Part shown: positions 5,501-8,500 of the stretch, piece after piece
How positions within the stretch are numbered: position 1 is the first letter of the stretch
How the letters are laid out: the number at the start of each line of letters is the position of its first letter
Source of the DNA: Carettochelys insculpta
Lineage: Eukaryota > Chordata > Testudines > Carettochelyidae
Direction of reading: 5' to 3'
NCBI RefSeq assembly: GCF_033958435.1
Contig: NC_134160.1
Location: forward strand, 10,961,001 to 11,025,000
DNA length: 64,000 bases
The notes under the pieces: generated by a model
The model's database searches: none
What the model saw: the letters and a program-made list of their open reading frames with translations, nothing else
Told to the model about the DNA's origin: nothing
Program-made: the position numbers and the translations under genes

Positions 5501-8500
5501 GGGCCGCCCGCCTCGCCCGGCCGGGAGTGACAATGATGGGGAGCGGGGGGTGGTCAGCGTTAGCTCCAGGAGGGGCATCCCCCAGGGTCCCAGTGGGTGC
5601 CCATGTCTCACCCCATGTCAGGGTCTGGGTCTCAGAGTCCTCCCCCAGAACATCCCTTGGGATGGCTCAGTGTAGAAACCAAGCTGGGAATGGGGAGAAA
5701 ACTTCCCCCACCCTACAGGGGCTGGAAAGGGGCTTCCTGAGGCCCCCTGCTCACATCTACCAGGCAGAGAGCCCCACTCCCGCCCAGAGGTCAGAAAAAT
5801 ACCCCCAAAGTTACTTGAGTAAAAGTACAGCTGTGTTGGGAGTATGTGTACTTAAGTACAAGTCATTCGTGCCCAGCAGGGAAACTACTTGAATAAAAGT
5901 GCACAAACACCCCTCCCCCCTTTAGTGTACTCAAGTACCCTGAAGCTTCTACTCAAGTCACTTTTCAGGTACTTTTCCCACCTCCGTTCCTGCCCACACA
6001 GGATCATCAGACCCTGTGGGTCTGGTGGAGACCAGAGGGAATCCCCTCCCACCAGCCACTCCCCCACACCCAGCTCTGCCTCTGCAGTGCGCCCGCCTTA
6101 CCCATCCACACGTCTCCAAAACAGCCCATGCCAAGCTTCTTATCCAAGCTTATGGACTCCCGCGTTATTTCCCAGGCGTCTTTCGACAGGCCCAGAGTCT
6201 GGGGCTTCATAGCGGGGCATGGCTGGGTTAGTAGATGGCACAGACCGTCATTGAACTCTGCGGGGGGGATGATGGGCAGGGGCAGGAGAGAGGAAGGGGA
6301 GTGGAGAATGGGATGAAGTCAGCATGCACATGCACAAGGGCCGAGCGGAAGAGGTGGTGGCGAGCGAGCCCAGGCTCCGACTGATCGCCTGCCTTGGTGC
6401 CGCGGTGGAAGCCTGTTTCTCCACCAGCTGGCGCTGTTCACCTGCGCTCCTGGGCAGCGTTAGCTCTCAGCAGAGGCGGCTTTGCCCTGCCAGGGCAGCA
6501 GAGGGGCGGGGTATCCCCTGCGGTGGGCACAGCTCTGCCCTGCAGCCCCCGACCAGAGGGTGGCTCCATTAAGGCTGCACTCCAGCCAGGCGCACAGAGA
6601 GGACTAACTGGCTGTCAGGCACCAGGGCTGGCTGCTTAGTGGGGCAGTGCCAGGAGGCCAGGATGAGTCTGGGGTCATTGACTTGTTCCCTCCCGCCACA
6701 GGTTCACTGTCCTAGGTGCTAGGACCAGCAGAGGGCTGTTCATCTCTAGAGCAGGCAATCAGGAGCTCCCAGCCATCAGGAGGGGAGTGGAGGGGCACCA
6801 GAGCTGGCTGGATCCAAGGGCAGCTGGAATGGAGCAGGAATGGGCTGGATCGCTTTCAACAGCCTTTTCCCTAAGAAAAATTCCCCGCTGTGCGAGACAC
6901 ACATGCATGCTAGGCTGAGCCTGGGCATAGAAACCCCCTTGCACCCACAGACCAAGTTCAGCTCAGGTAGCAGCAACGGCGTGGCCCAGCCTGGCTCAAG
7001 GGATTTCAGTCCCCAGGGCTCTGTCAGTCCCGAGCAGACGGCTAACCAAGTGGGCCGGTTCAGGCGAGGAAGCCCCAAGCCCCCTGGGAAACAAGCTGAG
7101 GCCCAGCAAACTCATTGCACTCTGCCAAGGGCTCACGGCCAAAGAGCAGCCCCATCACCCCCCTGCTGCGGGCGATTCCCACCGCCCGGTGCTGCCCTGG
7201 TTGGATCCAGCCTTTGGCATGCCTCCCCTCACCCCGGCTGGGTGCAGAGCCTGGAGTTCTCGCCTCCCCTCGCAGCTCAGCCCCCGCATGCCTGGAGAGT
7301 CCTACCCATCCACACTTCCCCAAACTGCCCATTGCCCAGTCTCTTGATGAGCTGCAGCGACTCTCGTGGAATCTCCCACATGTCTTTGGTTTTGACAGAC
7401 AGGTCTGCCAGCTTGGGCATCCCCCTGTGGCACGGCACGGCCAGGCGGCAGCACAGGCCCGCGGCCCGCTCTTGAGGGAGGAGCCGCGGGAAGGAGGGAG
7501 GAGAGAGAGAGAGGTGAGAGCACAGATGGAGACCGGGCAGACGAGGCACTCGAGGGCTGGGAGAGAGAACACACACTCCTGCGAGCCCGGGGGCAGCACG
7601 GCCCCACCGCTCGCCCGCCCCACTGTGGCCCGGGGGTCACCACCACCTGGCAGGCCCCAGCTGCAGGAGTCGCAGTGGCATACTAGACGAAGCAGGGCAC
7701 CCCCTGGGGGGGCTAGGCCTCAGCTTCGCAGTGGGGCCCCCTGAGTCCCACGGGAGCTCAGCCGAGCTCCTTGGCGGTGACTCTAGGCTGGCTGGCACCC
7801 AAAAGTCACGGCTGTTCTACCTGCCACCCTGAGCCCAGCTGGCGGGTGGTTCCTGGGTCACCATCTCCAGCTGAGCCCCTTGGGCCAGCCTGGCTCCCAT
7901 GGGCCGGAGTCTGTGACCAACGCCAGAGAAGGGAGTAACCAAAGCCCTCCCCACCCCCCCACACAGGCTGCTCCACATTGCAGGTGACCACCTCGGTGGG
8001 CCCAGCCGGGGTGAGTTTTGTTTGCCACACAAGGCCTTAGCGGAGGCCTGGCACTGGGGCACAGGCTCCCCAAGGGCTGACCCCTGGCAGGAAAGGCACC
8101 CCCTCTCCCCCAACTCCAGAAAATTCCCACTGTGCTCCAAGGGAGAGCCCCTCCCTGCTTCTCCGGCTGCCCCATGGCTCCGATCCGGGGCTGTGCTTCA
8201 CCGCCTGGGGGTGGATCTCATTGCAGCAGCTGGGCTGAGCACAGGAAGGCTCAGGGCAGCTCTGAGGCACCTGGCGAAGCACCCTCCAGCTCATCCCCCT
8301 TCCCACCTCTGTCTGGAACGCCAGACCTCACCCCGTGGCCAAACCCATCTCTCAATGCAACGCTCCTTCCCCTCCCCGGGCCATCCCTGGCTTGCCCCTT
8401 CCCACCTCCTTACCTCTGTAATGCTGGACCAGCTCCTGCACGGTCTCAAACTGGGCCCGAGTGGTGATGTAATAGCCACCGTTATCCAGCTTCCGGATCT

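Follow-up and report, generated by a model that had tools for sequence, protein, structure and literature searches.

The FYN gene carries two versions of its exon 7, termed 7A and 7B, which measure 165 and 156 nt. Exon 7 covers the linker between the SH2 and kinase domains together with the ATP site, and the two resulting proteins are FYN-T, the form of blood and spleen, and FYN-B, the general form (PMC9741552, PMC5026472; papers are cited here by PMC number and from excerpts). According to the excerpts of these two papers, the choice between 7a and 7b alters SH3-mediated autoinhibition, and a larger share of 7b is anticipated to result in higher activity. In PMC5224494, 7A is stated, with reference to Picard 2002, to be the younger copy of 7B. 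Four other genes (FGR, SRC, YES1 and FRK) are each given in a 2022 survey as having kept just one of the two exons of FYN, FGR of mammals being credited with the FYN-T-type exon only (PMC9741552). The excerpt of the same survey also describes a sorting of exons between CACNA1F and CACNA1S, in which alternative exons were parted among the descendants of a two-exon ancestor.

In the excerpt of PMC8247114, YRK is presented as the ninth member of the family, expressed only in chickens, although its identity to FGR of the black swan is put at 95%; the title of Sudol 1993, cited there, reports its expression in neural and hematopoietic tissue. Here, we describe a gene of the turtle Carettochelys insculpta which we take, with a probability of roughly 70%, to be the gene known from birds as YRK and from mammals as FGR, still equipped with a FYN-like 7A/7B pair from which mRNAs would most likely draw one exon at a time.

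The window, by which we mean the whole 64-kb stretch of DNA that was analysed, contains a complete Src-family kinase gene on its minus strand, from a start codon at 14550 to a stop codon ending at 2294 (table 1). Manual placement gave 12 coding exons, 11 of them per mRNA, with exon 7 existing as two versions; every intron between coding exons has GT/AG ends, and all phases are compatible. The predicted protein has the features of the SrcA group of the family, namely an N-terminal Gly-2/Cys acylation signal (MGCVYC), SH3, SH2 and kinase domains, and a tail tyrosine (YQPGDDQ). As in a FYN-type pair, the two exons 7 are homologous, have equal phases and splice ends, and each gives a full protein; indeed, the 7A-form and 7B-form proteins both exceed the Pfam cut-offs for SH3_1, SH2 and PK_Tyr_Ser-Thr. 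An earlier, sequence-only reading of this DNA had placed here two exons in tandem, 165 and 156 nt long with 1,048 nt between them, both open and both running from phase 1 to phase 1 between AG and GT ends, and all of these particulars, coordinates included, were found to be correct. It had also proposed that exchanging the exons alters the SH2-kinase linker and the ATP loop, which was confirmed (GNGQFG in 7A versus GMGCFG in 7B). The linker of 7A is three residues longer, is not of the KPQT kind and is followed by a P-loop with a glutamine; that of 7B is SRC-like, with KPQT, and its P-loop has a cysteine. The described FYN pair is alike in this respect, as its tandem exons exchange the same linker and P-loop (PMC9741552, as excerpted).

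Table 1. Coding exons of the Carettochelys gene and features around the two exons 7 (window coordinates).
Feature	Position	Strand	Description
Coding exon 2	14295..14550	-	ATG at 14550, GT donor; MGCVYC acylation signal and unique domain
Coding exon 3	12877..12979	-	SH3, first part
Coding exon 4	12238..12336	-	SH3, second part
Coding exon 5	8818..8921	-	SH2, first part
Coding exon 6	8414..8563	-	SH2, second part; phase 1 end; donor score best of 11
Perfect 15-bp complementary arms around 7A	7228-7242 and 8001-8015	-	
CU-rich AG-free tract before 7A	7473..7548	-	76 nt; candidate branch-point A 7515, 45 nt upstream
Exon 7A	7306..7470	-	165 nt; SH2-kinase linker and GNGQFG P-loop; YRK/FYN-B type
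Intron 7A-7B	6258..7305	-	1,048 nt
AG-free tract before 7B	6260..6374	-	115 nt; candidate branch-point A 6319 or 6314
Exon 7B	6102..6257	-	156 nt; SRC-like KPQT linker and GMGCFG P-loop; FGR type
Coding exon 8	5283..5462	-	kinase N-lobe
Coding exon 9	4952..5028	-	
Coding exon 10	4569..4722	-	carries catalytic motif (11 residues)
Coding exon 11	4163..4294	-	
Coding exon 12	2294..2502	-	C-terminal tail YQPGDDQ and stop

A 42-nt piece that takes in the acceptor of exon 6 and the opening bases of this exon (8543-8584) recurs with 88% identity and on the same strand at 17275-17316, approximately 8.7 kb upstream of exon 6 and before the coding start; a splice acceptor has been locally duplicated here over a short length. 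Remnants of LINEs, which we assign presumptively to a CR1-like family, lie on the minus strand at 10207-11534, inside the intron that separates exon 4 from exon 5, and at 19528-20723, upstream of the coding start.

The two exons resemble different members of the family. Searched with its flanks, the 7B peptide has human FGR as its top PDB match (E 1.7e-38, 133 bits), followed by SRC (E 1.7e-33, 117 bits), a resemblance well outside what chance would give, and it has in common with mammalian FGR a 16-residue stretch and GDVW that are absent from SRC, YES and FYN-T. For the whole 7B form, full-length SRC (857.9 bits) scores marginally above the shorter FGR chain (855 bits). The 7A peptide with its flanks obtains its top PDB scores with HCK and SRC (87 bits), because the FYN chains in PDB are without the linker; the FYN kinase chain reaches 81.9 bits over 44 residues. 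In direct comparison, 7A is identical to human FYN exon 7A at 51/56 residues (91%), and at 49/56 to chicken YRK, which is known only as a 7A-type protein and has the same exon type; 7A and 7B are identical to each other at 29/53. Of the comparison sequences, those of FGR and most of FYN (kinase, SH3-SH2), along with the first 12 residues of the FYN-T exon, were confirmed against PDB chains. When both peptides were compared with the window by tblastn, each exon was matched at the position of the other (54% over 52 positions), and a third exon 7 within the 64-kb window was rejected, the next best match having an E of 0.04. Against plasmid sequences, tblastn gave 326 records, all below 60% identity, the 20 matches listed being from bacteria and archaea.

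In a tree of 11 exon-7 peptides (53 columns, LG+G4), 7B and human FGR group together (support 99/99), as do 7A, chicken YRK and FYN-B (99/97). Within the latter clade, 7A lies nearer to FYN-B than to YRK (89/85; p 0.13 for 7A with YRK), and the branches of FYN-T, LCK and FGR were flagged as long. A recent tandem duplication inside the gene, modelled by forcing 7A and 7B together, is rejected (AU p 5e-6), and so are a 7B of FYN-T type (AU p 0.0022) and a 7B grouped with SRC and YES (AU p 0.0034). As regards 7A being the younger copy, its grouping with LYN, HCK and LCK has a support of 67/75 only, and a single clade of all FYN and FGR exons 7 is not rejected (p 0.11). Judging from these peptides, the 7A/7B pair is older than the split between FYN and FGR, because FYN also has both exon types. 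Accordingly, the exon tree and AU tests bear out the earlier proposal that the ancestor of FYN and FGR had both exons, and the 99/97 clade its description of 7A as a YRK/FYN-B type. Its likening of 7B to FGR and FYN-T stood for the FGR part and fell for the FYN-T part (AU p 0.0022). That mammals kept a 7B-type exon, as had also been put forward, agrees with the single exon of FYN-T type attributed to FGR in the excerpt of PMC9741552 and with a human FGR chain of that type in PDB. The Carettochelys gene differs from mammalian FGR in that it also has 7A.

Which gene this is depends on more than exon 7. The 7A form is identical to chicken YRK at 464/534 positions (87%) and to human FYN-B at 434/536, and the 7B form to human FGR at 395/526. 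In the unique domain, identity is 55% with YRK, 41% with FYN and 40% with FGR, which therefore ties the gene to YRK and gives no choice between FYN and FGR; orthologues of FYN are far more alike in this domain than 41%. A tree built without exon 7 joins the gene to YRK (76/90), and it does not recover the gene, YRK and FGR as a group (log-likelihood 1.7 lower), although neither this group (p 0.31) nor that of the gene, YRK and FYN (p 0.20) is rejected. The case for orthology to FGR thus draws chiefly on exon 7B and on the likeness to YRK, because the tree of the remaining gene does not by itself separate kinship with FGR from kinship with FYN. The neighbourhood of FGR has the order AHDC1-FGR-IFI6. 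Reading by eye through the open reading frames of at least 130 aa in the window, we recognised none. Beyond the stop codon, the window extends for a further 2.3 kb in the direction in which AHDC1 would presumably lie.

Whether both exons are under constraint was approached by counting lineage-specific changes at the residues that SRC and YES have in common (50 sites within 7B, 332 in the remaining gene). Changes unique to the Carettochelys gene amount to 2/50 in 7B and 8/332 elsewhere, and those of Carettochelys and human FGR stand at 2:6 in 7B versus 8:26 elsewhere (Fisher p 1.0). The Carettochelys gene and FGR both differ from SRC and YES at 12/50 sites in 7B versus 20/332 elsewhere, which points to a rapid change in 7B at an early stage of the FGR line, common to the two genes. 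The same count for 7A, made against FYN-B with YRK, gives 2/56 unique changes versus 10/399 elsewhere. Within the limits set by such small counts, neither exon appears to be relaxed in the Carettochelys lineage in comparison with the remaining gene.

A different reading of the same locus is that one exon only is in use, most probably 7A, the type present in chicken YRK, and that 7B is a fairly recent splicing relic which has not yet decayed. Under simulated neutral drift, 7B stays open with its splice ends in 34% of cases at 0.05 substitutions per site and in 12% at 0.10; moreover, turtle genomes mutate slowly, so that a loss of 7B within the last 60-100 million years is possible by a rough estimate. 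However, at 0.20 substitutions per site survival is down to 1.5%, and a long-dead 7B is unlikely. The donor of 7B (GTAAGG) ranks fifth of 11, with a score of 3.48 versus 0.50 for that of 7A, the longest AG-free tract of the gene is found at 7B, and its amino acids have changed no faster than those of the remaining gene in the Carettochelys lineage. On balance, we regard a relic 7B as unlikely.

The signals around the two exons are those expected of regulated exons, as both have weak acceptors and long AG-free tracts. Indeed, among the 11 acceptors (exons 3-12), the longest AG-free stretches are those of 7B (115 nt) and 7A (76 nt), the other nine measuring 15-54 nt, and the two lowest acceptor scores, obtained with human frequencies, also belong to 7A and 7B; each ranking has a chance of 1/55, the two measures not being independent. 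Three UGCAUG motifs, presumably of the Rbfox type, start at 6907, 6334 and 6328 in the intron between 7A and 7B, versus approximately 0.6 expected from the window rate of 0.58 per kb on that strand, for a motif picked after looking. Runs of CUCUCU precede 7A. The complementary arms on either side of 7A could conceivably loop this exon out of the pre-mRNA; a pair of 15-bp arms was obtained in 6/400 shuffles, but in 7/41 slices of the window. We treat the UGCAUG motifs, the CU-rich tract and the arms as leads only in the search for regulatory elements. By comparison with human FYN, for which Table 1 of PMC5224494 gives a 7a tract of 43 nt in an AG-free zone of 61 nt, the Carettochelys 7A is similar, with its candidate branch point at 45 nt and its zone of 76 nt, whereas 7B is not, the zone of FYN 7b being 35 nt long and that of Carettochelys 115 nt.

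The intron between 7B and exon 8 also houses an inverted-repeat element (5785-5984) with 39-nt arms that are 79% complementary, and related copies occur near 36764-36908 and 61860-62075.

The exclusive use of either exon is not imposed by the layout of the gene. Proteins of 542 aa (7A alone), 539 aa (7B alone), 594 aa (both) and 487 aa (neither) are all open, and since the both-skipped and both-included forms are in frame, nonsense-mediated decay would not enforce an either/or choice. The gap of 1,048 nt likewise creates no steric block between the donor of 7A and the candidate branch points of 7B. With room enough for the two exons and every combination in frame, exclusivity would need regulators. 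Both exons might also be skipped or included together, giving four in-frame forms and no clean switch, and a FYN form with neither exon is among the three isoforms tested in PMC10939263, as excerpted. Nevertheless, skipping both exons loses the P-loop, and including both puts an extra linker and P-loop ahead of the kinase; inactivity is therefore to be expected of both forms. In addition, the two exons of FYN are said to exclude each other (PMC9741552, as excerpted). These points make a set of four forms rather improbable.

A gene conversion that brought 7A from FYN into this gene and YRK, with no ancestral pair in FGR, is very improbable: the 51/56 identity to human FYN-B and the position nearer to FYN-B than to YRK (89/85) would suit such an event, but purifying selection gives a like identity (42/44 in exon 11 and 46/50 in exon 6 versus FYN), and chicken YRK has the same exon type, so that the conversion would need to be older than birds and turtles.

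Returning to a retained two-exon gene, an mRNA most likely takes either 7A or 7B, one at once. By analogy with FYN, the 7B product would be a blood-cell form and the 7A product a neural or general form, differing in the autoinhibition exerted by SH3 and the linker. Exon 7A would later have been lost in mammals and 7B in birds, and through these opposite losses one gene would have come to look like two kinases.

The residue exchanged in the P-loop may add a further dimension. In SRC, the P-loop cysteine (Cys280 in human, Cys277 in chicken) is required for activation by oxidants (PMC7619190, PMC6207713, both as excerpted): activation by pervanadate is abolished by C280A and tends to be lower in C280Q (PMC7619190), and activation by hydrogen peroxide involves the same cysteine, Cys277 (PMC6207713). 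This cysteine is common to SRC, YES1 and FGR, and glutamine is the most conserved residue at the position of SRC Cys280 in the family (PMC7619190, PMC6207713). If SRC and YES1 are a guide, the P-loop cysteine may make the 7B form responsive to oxidants, and the 7A form may be unresponsive, which is the weakest step of the scheme. Several points count against a simple transfer of redox behaviour to 7B. SRC also needs Cys188 (185 in chicken), said in the excerpts to be absent from other family members; YES1, which is without Cys188, responds to pervanadate and hardly to hydrogen peroxide (PMC7619190, PMC6207713); and according to PMC6207713, SRC may be alone in having this mechanism. It is therefore only tentatively, and with more doubt than confidence, that we suggest that the ancestor of FYN and FGR toggled its P-loop by splicing between an oxidant-blind glutamine and an oxidant-activated cysteine, that the Carettochelys lineage would still do so in both FYN and FGR, and that birds and mammals would have fixed opposite settings of one and the same gene.

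The switch itself is already known in FYN, and what the Carettochelys gene suggests is the persistence of the presumed ancestral two-exon state. Among the open-licence titles listed, none reports both exons 7 in FGR or YRK. A two-exon FGR would be a direct witness that the switch once existed in FGR and was then lost, as opposed to a gain of 7A by FYN alone. If the proposed reading is true, the identity of YRK would be settled: YRK and FGR would be orthologues that diverged via reciprocal loss of alternative exons, and orthologues in two vertebrate classes would differ by which alternative exon each kept. This would differ from the case of CACNA1F and CACNA1S, which are paralogues in one genome (PMC9741552, as excerpted), whereas YRK and FGR would be orthologues of birds versus mammals. 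On the more tentative redox reading, whatever sensitivity to oxidants FGR may have in myeloid cells would be a setting made permanent by mammals. The pair also offers a natural swap of cysteine and glutamine at a P-loop site which is implicated in the activation of SRC and YES1 by oxidants (PMC7619190, PMC6207713, as excerpted) and is a target of covalent inhibitors.

Elsewhere in the window, an open frame of 526 codons on the plus strand (57080-58660) contains an RVT_1 domain (E 9e-34) and corresponds to a LINE that is apparently little decayed. A tRNA-like stretch on the minus strand (16303-16375) scores 36 bits in Rfam and is called tRNA-Thr by ARAGORN; it may represent a SINE head and not a genuine tRNA gene.
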